Shown: positions 19,996-30,482 of the stretch, one piece after another
How positions within the stretch are numbered: the first letter of the stretch is position 1
Layout of the letters: each line of letters opens with the position of its first letter
NCBI GenBank assembly: GCA_947502145.1
Contig: CANMYO010000003.1
Location: forward strand, 62,001 to 126,000
Direction of reading: 5' to 3'
Source of the DNA: an uncultured Paracoccaceae bacterium
GTDB lineage: Bacteria > Pseudomonadota > Alphaproteobacteria > Rhodobacterales > Rhodobacteraceae
Length of the DNA: 64,000 nt
Notes under the pieces: model-generated
What the model saw: the letters and a program-made list of their open reading frames with translations, nothing else
What the model was told of the DNA's origin: nothing
The model's database searches: none
Position numbers and translations under genes: made by a program

Positions 19996-20531
19996 AGCCG
20001 ATGCCCCAAGCTATCCACGGCACCCGGCGCAGGGCGTGCCACACCAAACAGGTATTGCCCCACAAAAACGACTACCGGGTAGACTGCAATCGTCATCAAC
20101 ATTTGGATCAGGGTCAAGCCAAGTGGCGCTTGCGGCAACATCACAATTGTGAGCACGATGCGATTTGCAATCGTTATTGCGACGATACCAATTGCGACGC
20201 CGCCCCATTCAAGCAGCAGCGGCATATTGCGGATTTTGATCGCCCGCGCCCGGAGGACCTCGGTGAGGATCAGGACCAACGCGGCCCACAGGCCCGGCGG
20301 TCGTTGAAACAGCAGATCAGTCAGCAGAAAGATTGTCGCAACAACCAGAAACGGCGCGTAGTCGGGGCGTCGTGCAGACCATGCCAGCGTCGCCGCAAGC
20401 AAAAGGTCCGGTGGCGCCCAGCGGCCCGGCTGCATATCCAGTGGCAGCAATTGCAGGAAGATCAGCGCAAGGGCGATGGTCACGAATGTCGCGCGCCCAA
20501 TCCAGACCTGTGTTGCAGGGGTCTCAGCCAT
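19992..20531 (-). CDS. mreD: Rod shape-determining protein MreD
   Basis: Small multi-TM protein between mreC and mrdA; start MAETPATQ at 20531 overlaps mreC end. Confidence 0.82.
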   Translation of the reverse strand: MAETPATQVWIGRATFVTIALALIFLQLLPLDMQPGRWAPPDLLLAATLAWSARRPDYAPFLVVATIFLLTDLLFQRPPGLWAALVLILTEVLRARAIKIRNMPLLLEWGGVAIGIVAITIANRIVLTIVMLPQAPLGLTLIQMLMTIAVYPVVVFVGQYLFGVARPAPGAVDSLGHRL

Positions 20532-21444
20532 CGGTGCCGCCGGCGCTGTTCTCAGCAGTTTGGGGCATCGGACCGAAGAACTGCGGCTCGGTCGGGCGAA
20601 GCAACCCGCCGGGGTCGCTGATCTGCTCGTGCGGATGGGCGCGCAGGATGCGCAGGAACTCCAACCGGCCATAATCGGCGGACAACCGAACCCGCAGGCG
20701 ACGATCAGAGCCAAGGGCCACCTGACCGACCAACAGATCGGGCGGAAAGACCCCGCCGTCACCCGACGAAACCACGCGGTCGCCAGGGCGGACAACAGCG
20801 GCATCCTCAAGATATTCGATCGGTGGATTCAACGTGTTGTCACCCGCCAGAATGGCCTTTTGACCAGAGGGTTGGATTGTTACAGGTATCCGGCTTGAAG
20901 TGTCCGTCAGAAGAATGACCCGTGATGTTTTTTGCCCAACACCGCTGATCCGTCCGACTAGGCCAATGCCATCCATCGCGGGCCAGCCGTCTATGATTCC
21001 ATCACGACTGCCAACATTCAAAAGAACCGATTGCCGAAAGGGCGATCCGCTATCCGTCATGACCACGCCGGTTACATAGGTGAGCTGCGGATCAAGCCGG
21101 ACGTTGTTGAGATCCAGCAAACGGGCGTTTTCCTGCTCCAGTTGAAGCGCCGCCTCTTTCCAGGATTTCATTTGTTGAAGTTCGCGGCGTAAGTCGCTGT
21201 TTTGTTCAGCCAATTGTTGGTAGCTGCGAAAGTCGCTGACAAGGTTGGCAACCCCGGTCACGGGGGCCATCGCCCAGTCAAAAGACGGCACCACACGGTC
21301 AATGACAGCTGCGCGAAACCGTTCCACACGCGGGCTGTCAATCCGCCAAACCAGAAAGGTGCCGATCAAAAGAAATACGCAAACCCCAACCAGCAATCTG
21401 CGGATTGGGCCGACAAAGTCGTCGCTGTCGCGGTTTCGTGCCAA
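20524..21444 (-). CDS. mreC: Rod shape-determining protein MreC
   Basis: QQLAEQNSDLRRELQQMKSW...VVMTDSGSPFRQSVLLNVGSRDGIIDGWPAMDGIGLVGRISGVG. Confidence 0.93.
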   Translation of the reverse strand: MARNRDSDDFVGPIRRLLVGVCVFLLIGTFLVWRIDSPRVERFRAAVIDRVVPSFDWAMAPVTGVANLVSDFRSYQQLAEQNSDLRRELQQMKSWKEAALQLEQENARLLDLNNVRLDPQLTYVTGVVMTDSGSPFRQSVLLNVGSRDGIIDGWPAMDGIGLVGRISGVGQKTSRVILLTDTSSRIPVTIQPSGQKAILAGDNTLNPPIEYLEDAAVVRPGDRVVSSGDGGVFPPDLLVGQVALGSDRRLRVRLSADYGRLEFLRILRAHPHEQISDPGGLLRPTEPQFFGPMPQTAENSAGGTDG

Positions 21445-21469
21445 GGGTCAAACACCCCTTTGGATATGT

Positions 21470-22567
<1,098 letters not shown>

Positions 22568-22764: not shown

Positions 22765-24321
22765 TCAACCAGCGTCTTTGTAACTGACGCCTTTGGTGTC
22801 ATACCCCGGTTCCGATTTCGTGCGGCGTACAATCAATCGGTTGAGCGCGTTGATATAGGCCTTCGCAGAAGCAACGACTGTGTCAGTATCCGACGATTGG
22901 CCGGTTGCAATGCGCCCGTCTTCCTCCATCCGGACAGACACGGTTGCCTGCGCGTCCGTGCCTTCTGTCACCGCATGAACCTGATACAATTGCAGCCGCG
23001 CGCGATGGGGGTAGATCTCCTTGACGGCGGAAAACGTTGCATCGACCGGGCCATCACCCGTCGTGCTCACAGATTGTTCGGAACCCTCAACCAGCATGAC
23101 CATGTCAGCCGTTTGCGGGCCTTCGGTGCCACAGGCCACTTTCAGCGACTTCAACTGCAAGGTGTCATCCTCGGTCGCGTTGCTGTGCATCAAAGCGATC
23201 AAATCGTCTTCGAAGACTTCCTTCTTGCGGTCGGCCAGTTCCTTGAACCGAACGAAGACATCCATCAGTTCGTTGTCGCCCAAATCATATCCGAGCTCTT
23301 CCAACTTCGATCGCAAAGCGGCGCGACCGGAATGCTTGCCCATGACAAGGTTGGTTTCGGAAAGGCCAACGTCGGTGGGGCGCATGATCTCAAACGTTTC
23401 CGCGTTTTTCAGCATGCCGTCCTGATGGATTCCGCTTTCGTGCGCAAAGGCGTTCTTTCCAACAATGGCTTTATTGAATTGCACCGCAAACCCACTGACC
23501 GATGCAACACGACGAGAGATATTCATGATTTTCGTGGTGTCGATTTTGGTGGACCAAGGCATGATGTCATTGCGGACTTTCAAGGCCATGACAACTTCTT
23601 CCAGAGCAGTGTTTCCAGCACGCTCCCCCAGACCGTTGATGGTACATTCTATCTGACGGGCACCACCCTCGACCGCGGCAAGGCTGTTCGCCGTCGCCAT
23701 GCCAAGGTCATTGTGGCAATGGGTTGCGAATATCACGTCATCTGCACCGGGAACCCGGTCGATCAACATCTTGATCAGGTCCGCGCTTTCACGCGGCGCG
23801 GTATAACCAACGGTGTCGGGAATATTGATTGTTGTCGCGCCGGCCTTGATCGCAATCTCGACGGTCCGGCACAGGAAATCCTCTTCGGTGCGGGTCGCGT
23901 CCATCGAAGACCATTGCACATTGTCACAAAGGTTGCGTGCGTGAGTGACGCAATCGTGGATGCGTTCCGCCATCTCATCTTGGGTCAGATTCGGAATCGC
24001 CCGGTGCAGCGGCGAAGTTCCGATGAAGGTGTGAATGCGTGGCGCTTTGGCGTGCTTTACCGCCTCCCAGCAGCGATCAATGTCCTTGAAGTTGGCGCGG
24101 GACAGCCCGCAGATCACACTATTCTTGGCGTTTTTCGCGATTTCGGTTACTGCGGCAAAGTCGCCTTCTGAAGCGATTGGAAAGCCAGCCTCGATAATAT
24201 CGACGCCCATTTCATCCAGCAGCGCTGCAATCTCAAGTTTTTCAGCATGTGTCATTGTCGCGCCGGGTGACTGCTCACCATCACGCAAAGTGGTGTCAAA
24301 AATCAAAACTTGGTTGGTCAT
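22765..24321 (-). CDS. leuA: 2-isopropylmalate synthase
   Basis: VLIFDTTLRDGEQSPGATM...FATHCHNDLGMATANSLAAVEGGARQIECTINGLGERAGN...FAHESGIHQDG. Confidence 0.97.
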   Translation of the reverse strand: MTNQVLIFDTTLRDGEQSPGATMTHAEKLEIAALLDEMGVDIIEAGFPIASEGDFAAVTEIAKNAKNSVICGLSRANFKDIDRCWEAVKHAKAPRIHTFIGTSPLHRAIPNLTQDEMAERIHDCVTHARNLCDNVQWSSMDATRTEEDFLCRTVEIAIKAGATTINIPDTVGYTAPRESADLIKMLIDRVPGADDVIFATHCHNDLGMATANSLAAVEGGARQIECTINGLGERAGNTALEEVVMALKVRNDIMPWSTKIDTTKIMNISRRVASVSGFAVQFNKAIVGKNAFAHESGIHQDGMLKNAETFEIMRPTDVGLSETNLVMGKHSGRAALRSKLEELGYDLGDNELMDVFVRFKELADRKKEVFEDDLIALMHSNATEDDTLQLKSLKVACGTEGPQTADMVMLVEGSEQSVSTTGDGPVDATFSAVKEIYPHRARLQLYQVHAVTEGTDAQATVSVRMEEDGRIATGQSSDTDTVVASAKAYINALNRLIVRRTKSEPGYDTKGVSYKDAG

Positions 24322-24352
24322 TTTCTTATTCCTGATGTTGCTGTCGTGGCGC

Positions 24353-24391
24353 GAAAACCCCCCTGAGCGGTCGCGCCGGATGGCACGCTCA
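24353..24391 (-). terminator. Putative attenuator hairpin upstream of leuA
   Basis: Minus strand TGAGCG-(16 nt)-CGCTCA followed by GGGGGGTTTTC; 5' arm overlaps the leader stop codon. Confidence 0.55.
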
Positions 24392-24472
24392 GAGGCGGCT
24401 TAGGAGCAGCAATAGCGCACGCAGCGACAGGCCCGTGGGGGCCATAGCAGGATTATGTGCGCGCGTCATCAT
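24389..24472 (-). promoter_or_regulatory. leuL: leuA leader peptide (transcription attenuation)
   Basis: 27-aa ORF MMTRAHNPAMAPTGLSLRALLLLLSRL* upstream of leuA; 8 Leu codons in the last 13 residues, overlapping the tgagcg/cgctca inverted repeat. Confidence 0.8.
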
Positions 24473-24567
24473 GGCGGGCACTATACCGCGGGAAAATTGT
24501 TTGGAAAGACTGAATCTGGTTCCGGCGCTTTGCTTGACCCGATCAGCAACCCGGCTAACTGGCGGGG

Positions 24568-25221
24568 ATGAAACGGGCATTGATCATCGGGGCGTCGGGC
24601 GGGATCGGCGCCGAGGTTGCGCATCAACTGTCGGCGCAAGGCGTTGATATCGTTGCGCTTTCGCGATCACGAGATGGATTTGACCTGAGTGATCCGGATA
24701 CTGTCGACACCTCATTGACCGCGGTGGAGGGGGTTTTCGACCTGATCTTTGTCGCTACGGGAATGCTTGGATCGCCCGAGAAATCCCTGTCTGCGGTGAC
24801 CGCTGATGAGTTGAAAAAAATATTTGCGATCAATGCGATAGGCCCAGCGCTGATCATGCGGCACGTGCCGCGACTTCTACGGCGGGATGGTCGGGCCGTT
24901 GCGGCGTTCCTGTCGGCGCGGGTGGGGTCCATCGGGGACAACAAGATCGGCGGGTGGCATAGCTATCGAACGTCAAAAGCTGCATTGAATCAACTGGTTA
25001 GGGGTTGTTCCATCGAAGTGGCGCGAAGCCATAAGCAGGCCGTCGTCGTGGCGTTGCATCCCGGCACCGTCGCGACACGGTTTACCGAGAGGTTCGCGAC
25101 CCGTCACAAGACCGTGCCCGCCGATGTCGCGGCTGCCAACCTGTTGAAAGTCATCGCGAATCTGGGCCCGTCGGATAGCGGTCGGTTCTATGATTATGCC
25201 GGTGAAGAGGTGCCGTGGTGA
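24568..25221 (+). CDS. Short-chain dehydrogenase/reductase (C-factor-like)
   Basis: ALIIGASGGIGAEVAHQL; NAIGPALI; WHSYRTSKAALNQL (YxxxK). Confidence 0.9.
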   Translation: MKRALIIGASGGIGAEVAHQLSAQGVDIVALSRSRDGFDLSDPDTVDTSLTAVEGVFDLIFVATGMLGSPEKSLSAVTADELKKIFAINAIGPALIMRHVPRLLRRDGRAVAAFLSARVGSIGDNKIGGWHSYRTSKAALNQLVRGCSIEVARSHKQAVVVALHPGTVATRFTERFATRHKTVPADVAAANLLKVIANLGPSDSGRFYDYAGEEVPW

Positions 25222-26735
25222 CATTGGTTTTGGTGCTGGGGGATCAGTTGTCAGAGCAGCTTTCTGCGCTGAAATCGGCCGATAAATCGCGTGATATCGT
25301 TGTCATGGCCGAAGTCGCGGCGGAAGCAACGTACGTTGCGCATCACCCCAAGAAAATTGCCTTTACATTCAGTGCAATGCGCAAGTTTGCAGCCAATTTG
25401 CGCGCGGCAGGCTGGACCGTGGCATTTACCAAGATTGACGCTGGTGTGCGGTCGATCAACGCCGCCCTTTTGGCGGCGGCTGAAACCTATGGACTGCGCG
25501 ACGTCATCGCAACAGAGCCGGGGGAGTGGCGCCTAATCCATGCGCTGCAGGACTGTCCGCTTGATATCACGATTCTGCACGACGACAGGTTTATCGCCAC
25601 TCATACCGAGTTCGAGACCTGGGCCACGGGTCGTAAGGCATTGAGAATGGAGTATTTTTACCGCGACGTGCGGCGCAAGACCGGGCTTTTGATGGATGGC
25701 GATACGCCCATGGGCGGGCGGTGGAATTATGATCACGACAATCGCAAGGGCGCACCGGATGCTGTGCATTTTGCCGGACCAAAACGGTTTGCCCCCGATG
25801 AGATCGTGCAGGAGGTTCTGGATCAGGTGGGTGCAAGATTTGCCAGCAATTTTGGTGATTTGGATGACTTTTGGTTCGCCACCGATCACGCAGAGGCGAA
25901 GGCGCATTTTGACCATTGGCTTCGCTATGCTGCCCCGCATTTTGGCGACTATCAGGATGCGATGCTATCTGATGAGCCGTTCATGTATCACGGGCTGGTG
26001 GGCCTTTATCTGAATGCAGGTTTGCTGGAGCCAATTGAACTGTGTCAAGCCGTTGAAACCGCATATAAAAACGGTGATGTACCGATCAACGCGGCAGAGG
26101 GGTTCATCCGTCAGATCATCGGCTGGCGCGAATACATCCGCGGCATCTATTTCCTTGAAGGCGCAGATTATGCATCCCGAAACGTGCTGCAACACAACGC
26201 CGCGCTACCTGCCGTGTACTGGGGAAAGCCGACCCGGATGCACTGCCTGTCACAGGCGATTTCACAAACAAGGTCAGAGGCTTACGCCCATCATATTCAG
26301 CGCCTGATGATCACCGGCAATTTTGCCCTGTTGGCGGGCGTTGATCCCGAAGCCGTGCACGAATGGTATCTTGCCGTCTATGCGGATGCCTATGCCTGGG
26401 TCGAGACCCCCAACACCATTGGAATGAGCCAGTTTGCCGATGGCGGCATCATCGCCTCAAAGCCTTATATTTCCTCAGGAAATTACATCAACAAGATGTC
26501 GAATTACTGCGCATCCTGCCACTATCAGGTGAAGGCCAAGACCGGGGCGGACGTCTGTCCCTTCAATCTGCTGTATTGGCAATTTTTGGACCGGCACAGT
26601 GAAAGGTTCAGGGAAAATCCGCGCATGGGCCATATGTATCGGACATGGGATCGCATGGATGACGGGCACAAATCCCGCGTTTTGCGTGAGGCAGAGGCGC
26701 TGTCAAAGGTTATCGCTGCGAACGGCGATTTTTGA
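25215..26735 (+). CDS. Cryptochrome/photolyase family protein, prokaryotic FeS (6-4) photolyase type
   Basis: LVLVLGDQLSEQLSAL...; AEGFIRQIIGWREYIRG; four candidate [4Fe-4S] Cys: MHCLSQAISQT and NYCASCHYQVKAKTGADVCPFNLLYW. Confidence 0.9.
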   Translation: MVTLVLVLGDQLSEQLSALKSADKSRDIVVMAEVAAEATYVAHHPKKIAFTFSAMRKFAANLRAAGWTVAFTKIDAGVRSINAALLAAAETYGLRDVIATEPGEWRLIHALQDCPLDITILHDDRFIATHTEFETWATGRKALRMEYFYRDVRRKTGLLMDGDTPMGGRWNYDHDNRKGAPDAVHFAGPKRFAPDEIVQEVLDQVGARFASNFGDLDDFWFATDHAEAKAHFDHWLRYAAPHFGDYQDAMLSDEPFMYHGLVGLYLNAGLLEPIELCQAVETAYKNGDVPINAAEGFIRQIIGWREYIRGIYFLEGADYASRNVLQHNAALPAVYWGKPTRMHCLSQAISQTRSEAYAHHIQRLMITGNFALLAGVDPEAVHEWYLAVYADAYAWVETPNTIGMSQFADGGIIASKPYISSGNYINKMSNYCASCHYQVKAKTGADVCPFNLLYWQFLDRHSERFRENPRMGHMYRTWDRMDDGHKSRVLREAEALSKVIAANGDF

Positions 26736-27262: not shown

Positions 27263-28690
27263 TCAGGGATTGCTGGTATCCTCGTCCGGTTCGGCGGTTG
27301 GGGCCGTGTCGTTCAGGATTGCGCCATCCGCCCATTCGCCTTGTTCGACCTCTCCGCTGGCATAGCGCATGGTGCCCGGACCCTGGCGGCGGCCCCGTAC
27401 AAAGCTGCCTTCATAGACATCGCCATTGGCATAGGTGGCCACGCCAACACCGGACATTTCACCTTCGGACCACTGGCCTTCGTAGGTAAATCCGTCGGGC
27501 AGGACGATGGAACCGGTGCCATGCCGCTGGCCGCCCAGGAACTCGCCTTCGTAGACGGTGCCGTCGGCGTAGACCGCGCGGCCCTGTCCGCTGCGCTGAC
27601 CCTCGGCCCACATGCCGTCATAGGTGTAGCCATCGGAATAGGTCATCTTGCCCCGTCCGTGGTTCTTGGCGTTCAGGAATTCACCTTCGTAGACAAGACC
27701 ATTGGCATAGGTTGCGATGCCGCTGCCGTTGATCACGCCGGTTTGCCAGTCACCTTCGTAGCTGGACCCGTCGGGATAGGTGATTTTGCCCTGACCATCT
27801 GCCAGATCCGCGGTGAAGCTGCCCACATAGAGTGAGCCATCAGGGTAGGTGACCTCTCCTTGCCCGTCGATTTGGCCATTGGCCCAGGACCCGACATAGC
27901 GATAGCCATCCGTGCCGATAAAGGTGCCCTGGCCGTGGCGCTTGTCGTCCTTGAACCCGCCCTGGTAGGTGTCGCCATTGGCGTAGGTCACGATGCCGGT
28001 GCCTTCGCGCCGACCGGCGACAAGGTCGCCTTCGTAGACGTCGCCATTGGGCTGCGACAGGCGGCCCTTGCCTTCGATCTGGCCGTCGACCCAGGTGCCG
28101 GCGTAGACAAGCCCGTCTTTCATCCGCAACGTGCCGCGGCCTTCACGTTCGCCATTGACGAGCGCGCCTTCGTAGATGGAGCCGTCGGGATAGGTGATCT
28201 TGCCTTCGCCTTCCTTGACGCCATTGATCCAGGGGCCTTCGTAGACGTAACCATTGGCAGAGCGCATGGTGCCGGTGCCGTGGTGCATGGCGTTGCGAAA
28301 TTCGCCTTCGTAGTTCACGCCGTTGGCGTAGTTGGCGATGCCACGACCGGTGATGTTGCCATCAGCCCAGTCCCCTTCGTAGGTGCCGCCGTCAGCAAAG
28401 GTGATCATCCCGGTGCCATGCGGTTTGCCAGCCTGGAACTGCCCGACATAGACCGATCCGTTGGGAAAGGTCGCGGTGCCCTGGCCGCGGATTTCGCCTT
28501 CGACCCAGTCGCCGGTGTATTCATAGCCATTGGGCAGCCGATAGGTGCCCTGACCGTGCTGCTTGCCATTCAGGAATGCGCCTTCATAGACGCCGCCGTC
28601 GTCGTATTGCTTGGTCTCGATGGTCTGGGCATGGGCCATGCCCGCCATCGCCACTGCCAATGATCCTGCCCATGCAAGCCGCTTCATCAT
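27263..28690 (-). CDS. Secreted MORN-repeat protein
   Basis: Signal peptide MMKRLAWAGSLAVAMAGMAHA followed by 18 complete 23-aa MORN units (YEGxFxxGxxHGxGxxxxxxGxx) plus a partial unit; start at 28690. Confidence 0.93.
   Translation of the reverse strand: MMKRLAWAGSLAVAMAGMAHAQTIETKQYDDGGVYEGAFLNGKQHGQGTYRLPNGYEYTGDWVEGEIRGQGTATFPNGSVYVGQFQAGKPHGTGMITFADGGTYEGDWADGNITGRGIANYANGVNYEGEFRNAMHHGTGTMRSANGYVYEGPWINGVKEGEGKITYPDGSIYEGALVNGEREGRGTLRMKDGLVYAGTWVDGQIEGKGRLSQPNGDVYEGDLVAGRREGTGIVTYANGDTYQGGFKDDKRHGQGTFIGTDGYRYVGSWANGQIDGQGEVTYPDGSLYVGSFTADLADGQGKITYPDGSSYEGDWQTGVINGSGIATYANGLVYEGEFLNAKNHGRGKMTYSDGYTYDGMWAEGQRSGQGRAVYADGTVYEGEFLGGQRHGTGSIVLPDGFTYEGQWSEGEMSGVGVATYANGDVYEGSFVRGRRQGPGTMRYASGEVEQGEWADGAILNDTAPTAEPDEDTSNP
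27347..28588 (-). repeat. Tandem 69-bp coding repeat (18 MORN units)
   Basis: 18 x 23 codons counted from the translation, with no indels between units. Confidence 0.9.
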
Positions 28691-28823
28691 GTCGGTCCCC
28701 GCTCGTTCCCTCGGGCGCAATCTAGAGGAGGGGCGCGGGGGTGACAACGGGGCGTGATCGGCAATCGGCTTTCCCTTGCGCGCCAGTCTGCTACATCTGG
28801 CGCAATGCAATGAGGGCCACGTG

Positions 28824-30482
28824 ATGACCGAGACATTTCGCCTGACGATGGCGCAGCTGAACCCTACGGTGGGGGATCTGGCGGGCAATGCCGCGCTGGC
28901 CCGCAAGGCCTGGGCGGAGGGCAAGGCGGCGGGGTCCGATCTGGTGGCGTTACCCGAGATGTTCCTGGTTGGATATCAGACGCAGGATCTGGTGCGACGC
29001 CCGGCCTTCATTGCTGACGCGATGACCCATCTGCTGGCGCTGGCGGATGATTGTGCGGACGGCCCGCTGCTGATGATTGGGGCGCCCGTGCTGGATGCGG
29101 GGCGGCTGCTGAATGCCTACTTCCTGCTCGGCGGTGGCAAGATCGTTACCCGGTTCGACAAGCATTTCCTGCCGAATTTCAACGTCTTCGACGAGGTGCG
29201 CCTGTTCAATCGCGGGGCAATCACGGGCCCGTTTTCGACCAGCGGACCACGAATCGGATCCCCGATCTGCGAAGATGCCTGGTATCCGGACGTGGCCGAA
29301 GCGATGGTCGAGAGCGGGGCAGAGCTGCTGCTGGTGCCCAACGGCTCACCCTATTTCCGGGGCAAGATGCCGATCCGGATGAACGAAATGGTCTCGCGCG
29401 TGGTCGAAAACCAGGTGCCGCTGGTCTATCTCAACATGCTGGGCGGGCAGGATGATCAGATGTTTGACGGGCGATCCTTTGTCCTTAATCCCGGCGGCCA
29501 TCTGGCAGTGCAATTACCCTTCATGGAAGAGGCGATTGCACATGTCGATTTTGAACAGACCGACGCCGGATGGCGGGCGCTGGAGGGCGAAAAAGCGGCC
29601 CTGCCAGAGGAAACCGAGCGCGATTATCACGTCATGGTCGGGGCATTGCAGGATTACATGCGCAAGACCGGATTCAAGAAGGTGTTACTGGGTCTGTCGG
29701 GCGGGATTGATTCTGCCATCGTGGCCACCATCGCGGCCGACGCGCTGGGCCCGGAGAATGTGCGCTGTGTGATGTTGCCTTCTGAATATACCTCGCAAGG
29801 GTCATTGGACGATGCGGCCGCCTGTGCCAAAGCGCTGGGCTGCGATTACGACCTGGTGCCGATCAAGGCGACGCGGGACGCGGTGACGCAGACGCTGGCG
29901 GGGCTTTTTGAGGGCCGTGATGCCGATCTGACCGAAGAGAATATTCAAAGCCGGATCAGGGGGCTGCTGCTGATGGCACAATCCAACAAGTTTGGTGAGA
30001 TGCTGCTGACCACCGGCAACAAGTCCGAGGTCGCTGTGGGATATGCGACGATCTATGGCGATATGGCCGGCGGGTACAATCCGATCAAGGACATGTACAA
30101 GACCCGTGTCTTTGACACCTGCCGCTGGCGCAATGCAAACCACCGTCCCTGGATGAAAGCCCCGGCAGGCCAGGTCATTCCCGAGGCGATTATCAACAAA
30201 CCTCCGTCGGCGGAGTTGCGCCCGGATCAGAAGGATGCTGACAGTCTGCCGCCTTATGATGTGCTGGACGGTATTCTGGAGCTGTTGGTGGATCGGGAGG
30301 CAAGCGTGGCTGACTGTGTCGCGGCAGGCTATGACCGGGAGGTGGTCAAGCGCGTTGAACATTTGATTTACATCAGCGAATACAAGCGGTTCCAGTCCGC
30401 GCCGGGGCCGCGGCTTTCGGATCGGGCGTTCTGGTTGGACCGGAGATACCCGATTGTGAACCGGTGGCGTGATCCGTCCTAG
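28824..30482 (+). CDS. nadE: NAD+ synthase (glutamine-hydrolysing)
   Basis: Nitrilase-like glutaminase domain (LPEMFLVGYQ, ICEDAWYPD) and synthetase LLGLSGGIDSAIVATIAADALG; TTGNKSEVAVGYATIYGDMAGGYNPIKD. Confidence 0.96.
   Translation: MTETFRLTMAQLNPTVGDLAGNAALARKAWAEGKAAGSDLVALPEMFLVGYQTQDLVRRPAFIADAMTHLLALADDCADGPLLMIGAPVLDAGRLLNAYFLLGGGKIVTRFDKHFLPNFNVFDEVRLFNRGAITGPFSTSGPRIGSPICEDAWYPDVAEAMVESGAELLLVPNGSPYFRGKMPIRMNEMVSRVVENQVPLVYLNMLGGQDDQMFDGRSFVLNPGGHLAVQLPFMEEAIAHVDFEQTDAGWRALEGEKAALPEETERDYHVMVGALQDYMRKTGFKKVLLGLSGGIDSAIVATIAADALGPENVRCVMLPSEYTSQGSLDDAAACAKALGCDYDLVPIKATRDAVTQTLAGLFEGRDADLTEENIQSRIRGLLLMAQSNKFGEMLLTTGNKSEVAVGYATIYGDMAGGYNPIKDMYKTRVFDTCRWRNANHRPWMKAPAGQVIPEAIINKPPSAELRPDQKDADSLPPYDVLDGILELLVDREASVADCVAAGYDREVVKRVEHLIYISEYKRFQSAPGPRLSDRAFWLDRRYPIVNRWRDPS

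Follow-up and report, generated by a model that had tools for sequence, protein, structure and literature searches.

In an uncultured Paracoccaceae bacterium, leuA, which is the first gene dedicated to leucine synthesis, is preceded by a short open reading frame (ORF) that is rich in leucine codons, probably leaderless, and embedded in a predicted RNA pseudoknot, and we consider it fairly likely that this fold gates the translation of leuA. The best reading of the feature is that of an alphaproteobacterial variant of the LEU element, which had earlier been described only in Actinobacteria. Coordinates are those of the window, that is, the whole stretch of 64,000 nucleotides that was analyzed; the promoter, the leader, its pairing arms, and leuA are all on the minus strand.

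The leader ORF and its conservation

The leuA gene (22765 to 24321) codes for a protein of 518 amino acids that matched the NCBIfam profiles TIGR00973 and NF002087, both above cut-off, and is a genuine 2-isopropylmalate synthase. Judging from the sequence, AGGA at 24330 to 24333 is its probable Shine-Dalgarno (SD) site. The leader ORF (24389 to 24472) begins with ATGATGACG at 24472 and consists of 27 codons and a TGA stop at 24391 to 24389 (MMTRAHNPAMAPTGLSLRALLLLLSRL). The sequence-only reading had described a leucine-rich ORF before leuA in which 8 of the last 13 positions are Leu, and both the sequence and the count are correct; at 10% Leu, the binomial probability of such a tail is about 8e-6. 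Five of the codons are consecutive (CTA TTG CTG CTC CTA, 24401 to 24415) and are taken as the regulatory ones. The sole promoter-like site in 450 bp is of the sigma-70 type (24480 to 24507), with a -35 box TTTCCA (24507 to 24502) and a -10 box TATAGT (24485 to 24480) separated by 16 nucleotides (nt). With a -10 box that ends only 7 nt ahead of the leader ATG, the mRNA of the leader is probably leaderless, and transcription would start at or beside the leader AUG. The same distance was 7 to 8 nt in 46 of the 54 relatives with a recognizable -10 box.

Downstream of leuA, on the same strand and after a gap of 258 bp, are genes that by eye resemble mreB and mreC (20524 to 22507). On the other side, a deoxyribodipyrimidine photolyase-related protein (Pfam DPRP, 25215 to 26735) is encoded divergently from leuA and adjoins a short-chain dehydrogenase gene, and the region from 27263 to 28924 codes for a long protein made mostly of MORN repeats.

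We gathered leuA genes and the DNA preceding them from 30 genomes of relatives and from 80 named, mostly alphaproteobacterial contigs. A short ORF upstream of leuA was found in most of the loci examined, with a peptide whose last residues are LLLLSRL, LLLLSCP, or a near variant of these. When the ORFs were anchored on the promoter, all 43 ATGs located 6 to 9 nt after a -10 box were open and in frame with the leucine run, giving leaders of 18 to 33 codons; the associated P value of about 3e-21 is inflated by the relatedness of the loci, and there was no exception among the 43. The choice of codons is also distinctive, as CTT and CTA make up 34% and 13% of the leucine codons in the leader tails, against 8% and 1% in leuA of the same loci, while CTG is depleted (19% versus 55%). 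The leader ORF is thus coding, with rare Leu codons, and the kept frame together with the enrichment of these codons shows that the translation of the leucine run matters. Conservation of the run in related genomes had been proposed as a check on the leader, and the run is kept in them.

Some variation in the peptides is worth recording. Early in the Rhodobacterales leaders, at about residues 4 to 8, there is an HI/HN/DI-type motif (DNA approximately CATATC; within 24472 to 24450 in the window) that was present in 32 of the 43 leaders; it lies far from the pairings described below and has no apparent role. In a Caulobacter vibrioides contig (L106:2835-2929), the TGA of helix A (described below) is replaced by TGG; the peptide becomes a few codons longer (LLLLALGLSRPWASV), and the RNA motif is preserved. 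Another relative (L009) has an extra small ORF (MTTRPNAATAAPTGIHGAPAVSPRPTKQGEAQ) between the leader element and leuA, whose TGA overlaps an ATG of leuA (CAATGAGC), which suggests translational coupling in that species.

The distribution of the element was followed with R1, a covariance model of the alphaproteobacterial leader, in searches that used no information on the gene. There was a single credible match in the source genome, and within the family R1 matched 194 of 199 sampled genera, with one copy per genome. Across the class Alphaproteobacteria it was found in 58 of 385 genomes, reaching families other than that of the source, and in the phylum sample the matches were confined to Alphaproteobacteria. 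All 30 loci fetched from the source-genome and class searches were directly before leuA. The attachment of a Leu-codon leader peptide to leuA, as claimed from the sequence, is therefore strongly supported, since the leucine run and its frame are kept and the leader occurs solely before this gene. The class-wide conservation of ORF, frame, and helices means that the element is not due to chance. Rfam gave nothing relevant at the gathering threshold or at E values up to 10, and in particular no Leu_leader match; the sole match near the feature was to a CRISPR-repeat model, below its threshold.

Pairings of the leader RNA

Three pairings recur downstream of the leucine run across the relatives, which we call helix A, helix B, and stem C. 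Helix A joins CCTCTGAGCG (24395 to 24386) to CGCTCAGGGG (24369 to 24360). The leader stop had been placed within one arm of a TGAGCG...CGCTCA repeat (24391 to 24386 and 24369 to 24364), and this was borne out, the repeat being the core of a longer 10-bp helix whose 5' arm holds the stop codon. Across loci, CCTCTGAGCG pairs with CGCTCAGAGG. In alignment A1, 98.6% of the cells were paired and four pairs had changes on both sides, while alignment A2 (66 sequences) had 99.4% of cells paired and 40 changed on both sides, with the caveat that A2 was fitted to helix A and leans towards it. Helix A and the inner loop are also the places where long stretches are near-invariant.

Helix B crosses helix A, as its 5' arm (GGCGCGA, 24371 to 24377) is within the loop of helix A and its 3' arm (TCGCGCC, 24348 to 24354) is beyond it. 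The core GGCGCG/CGCGCC has compensated variants, including GGTGCG/CGCACC and CCGGGC/GCCCGG. When the arms of each locus were exchanged for foreign ones, the pairing score fell from 18.67 to 16.27 ± 0.29, and for the 23 divergent loops from 16.35 to 13.80 ± 0.55 (0 of 20000). Helices A and B together predict a conserved H-type pseudoknot architecture, and by these alignments and swaps the structure is well supported. An inner hairpin (GUGCC/GGCGC) had 92.9% of cells pairing and zero covariation, and was rejected as a conserved substitute for helix B; it may be a counterpart of the alternative hairpin that shares the base stem in the LEU element.

Stem C connects the last Leu codons with the region before the leuA start, examples being TCCTAAGCC/GGCTTAGGA in L048, a Roseovarius, and CTTCTTAGC/GCTAAGAAG in L009. 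In the window its arms are TTGCTG (24407 to 24412), inside the leucine run, and CAGCAA (24338 to 24343), 16 nt ahead of the leuA ATG; this best pairing has only 6 bp and is not significant alone (p = 0.22). An alternative pairing in the window would join UCCU (24405 to 24402) to the SD-like AGGA (24333 to 24330). As the single-sequence test gave p < 0.05 in only 23 of 87 loci, stem C being weak in part of the relatives, it was assessed at the level of the family. There, the own-versus-foreign swap gave 16.31 versus 13.18 ± 0.31, with 14.51 as the best of 20000 permutations. The two sides also vary together, leaders with CTTA having TAAG downstream (Fisher P = 0.006) and those with CTAA having TTAG (P = 0.0001). 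In many Rhodobacterales the 3' arm ends about 17 to 23 nt before the leuA AUG, so that stem C adjoins the SD sequence and does not cover it.

Folding of the window leader RNA gave a z score of -2.05. In masked folding, with the pseudoknot outside the model, a ribosome placed on the leucine run left the leuA SD region more open than in the free RNA (P = 1.6e-4), and the start region was no more open than with the ribosome on the stop codon.

The sequence-only reading had assigned the leader to transcription attenuation by an intrinsic terminator, which was not supported. Its T run GGGGGGTTTT is indeed present after the repeat in the window (24363 to 24354, with four T beyond helix A), but the relatives lack a U tract at that place: the run is absent in all five congeners compared, which read GAGGGGATAG, GAGGGGATGC, GAGGGAACGC, or GAGGGGACGC, and in 63 of the 71 relatives scored no 8 nt after helix A hold more than three T. 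The terminator scan of the leader region in the window called no intrinsic terminator either, and on these three lines of evidence we reject it. The mutually exclusive terminator and antiterminator that were expected were not found: A and B do cross, as a pseudoknot or as alternatives, but neither precedes a U tract in most loci.

Probable control of leuA translation

The conserved pseudoknot and the stem that ties the Leu codons to the start region point to control at translation initiation, and leuA is probably switched on by this route when leucine is short; we infer both the direction of the switch and the level of initiation. With ample leucine, the ribosome would pass the rare Leu codons, terminate at the UGA in helix A, and depart, after which helix A, the crossing helix B, and stem C would form and shut the leuA initiation region, with the last Leu codons bound to the purine-rich stretch ahead of the leuA start. 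With scarce charged tRNA-Leu, the ribosome would stall on the leucine run and, covering about a dozen nt downstream, would mask the 5' arms of stem C and helix A, so that the fold would be kept open and leuA translated. What favors translation control is the missing U tract together with the conservation of B and C, and not the geometry of the ribosome, as the same mask would block a terminator too.

Attenuation by Rho is unlikely but survives best among the rival explanations. Leader translation and the pseudoknot would here decide whether Rho loads on the untranslated leader before leuA, using the same leucine sensor; the lack of an intrinsic terminator fits, and Seliverstov et al. suggested a role of Rho where other leader peptides lack a terminator (PMC1262725). 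Only about 66 to 140 nt separate the leader stop from leuA in most loci, however, and they are largely structured, which would make a small landing site, and the conservation of stem C would be left unexplained.

We give a low probability, below that of Rho, to classical attenuation, in which helix A and the T run would form an intrinsic terminator and a stalled ribosome would mask its 5' arm. The layout of the window is just what it predicts (leucine run, stop in the 5' arm, a GC-rich stem of 10 bp, and GGGGGGTTTT), and the leu attenuators of gammaproteobacteria offer a precedent. Against it, the terminator scan was empty, the T run is missing in the five congeners and in most relatives, Rfam gave no attenuator match, and the crossing helix B and stem C, both conserved, would have no role. 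Equally improbable is an element for protein binding, where a regulatory protein would recognize the pseudoknot and the leucine run would be kept mainly for stem C. This has been proposed for the actinobacterial LEU element (PMC1262725) and would suit the near-invariance of long parts of helix A and the inner loop, but not the 43 of 43 leaders in frame or their enrichment in rare Leu codons. A chance ORF next to a chance hairpin can be practically dismissed, for a 27-codon ORF is unremarkable by itself but the class-wide conservation, the frame test, and the exclusive place before leuA refute it.

Besides the LEU element, three known systems come close to this leader. Classical leu attenuators (leuL, Rfam Leu_leader) occur in gammaproteobacteria and have in common with our leaders a Leu-codon peptide before leucine biosynthesis genes and ribosome stalling as the sensor, but here there is no Rfam match and no terminator with a U tract, and there are a pseudoknot and a pairing by the SD region. 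The ermC and cat leaders of resistance genes are translation attenuators, where stalling of a ribosome within the leader ORF frees the start region of the gene that follows. Their signal is an antibiotic, whereas charging of tRNA-Leu is proposed here, they differ in the pseudoknot of our element, and we claim no homology. Finally, trpL of Sinorhizobium is also a leaderless leader ORF of an alphaproteobacterium that serves amino acid control, but it responds to tryptophan through a terminator-type attenuator (PMC10117765), and its RNA is unrelated.

Relation to the actinobacterial LEU element

The closest likeness is to the LEU element located before actinobacterial leuA genes, which has an ORF with a leucine run, a pseudoknot, a base stem between Leu codons and the SD sequence, and no terminator (Seliverstov et al. 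2005, PMC1262725). Its authors preferred a protein-binding model, and mutations in the Streptomyces leuA leader behaved unlike the prediction of classical attenuation (PMC1262725). LeuL1 of Streptomyces lividans (MRFGLLLLSCRGEGL) is likewise leaderless and without a terminator (PMC8079986). Both kinds of leader thus lie upstream of leuA and share an ORF with a leucine run (leaderless in Streptomyces and probably so here), two crossing helices, and the absence of a terminator; a stem joining Leu codons to the leuA start region, which here is significant at the level of the family, would be a further likeness.

Four actinobacterial leuA leaders, taken from large replicons in a plasmid collection, were compared directly. 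R1 found three of them at the right place (Microbacterium, Nonomuraea, and Nocardia), with E values of 2e-4 to 2e-3 in 29 kb that were among its best matches, and missed the leader of Tsukamurella. All four have a strong helix A and allow a crossing helix B (p from 0.016 to 0.32 singly), while stem C is clear in the Microbacterium leader, which reads GGCCTGCTTCTTCTTAGCTGCC, close to the alphaproteobacterial leaders. No leader with a leucine run precedes L191 and L192, the leuA copies carried on Streptomyces plasmids.

The differences are also clear. Besides the phylum, the LeuA proteins belong to different subfamilies (TIGR00970 there and TIGR00973 here), so the leader was not simply inherited with one gene. 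The leader stop is in the 5' arm of helix A here and in the loop of helix A in the LEU element. The alphaproteobacterial peptide, with its LLLLSRL or LLLLSCP ending, is longer than the actinobacterial one (MQFGLLLLSCRDESSD in Microbacterium) and has a conserved AHI-like N-terminal part. Stem C is usually just upstream of the SD sequence here and on it in the LEU element. Whether there is one family of leucine-sensing leader RNAs, with a leaderless leucine-run ORF in a pseudoknot that controls translation initiation, across at least two phyla and two LeuA subfamilies is to us an even call; such a family would be either very old or moved between lineages independently of leuA. Common origin, transfer, or convergence could each account for the likeness.

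Leu-rich leader ORFs were also observed before TIGR00970-type leuA genes on replicons of Sinorhizobium meliloti, Sphingomonas, and Cupriavidus (L193:287-412, L194:416-478, and L195:391-480), ending in LLLLGLIRGCRVR, ALLLRSLRLIRP, and SSLLLSLPIGCRA, respectively; R1 scored the Sinorhizobium one at 13.5 bits (E = 0.05). The element may reach Betaproteobacteria.

We found no paper on a pseudoknot leader before alphaproteobacterial leuA, although such leaders may have been mentioned earlier by Vitreschak et al. (2004). A leader spotted by eye, and missed by gene callers and by Rfam, proves to be a regulatory RNA that is conserved widely in its class, with the caution that a Leu-rich leader and a hairpin before leuA are insufficient to call a transcription attenuator. 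The mechanism of the LEU element has been unsettled since 2005, partly because the Streptomyces mutants were unlike a classical attenuator. The near-universal, single-copy leuA leader of Rhodobacterales, present also in other Alphaproteobacteria, supplies many natural variants for covariation, and an alphaproteobacterial LEU element would give genetically tractable hosts in which to test the model of a stalled ribosome that opens the start.
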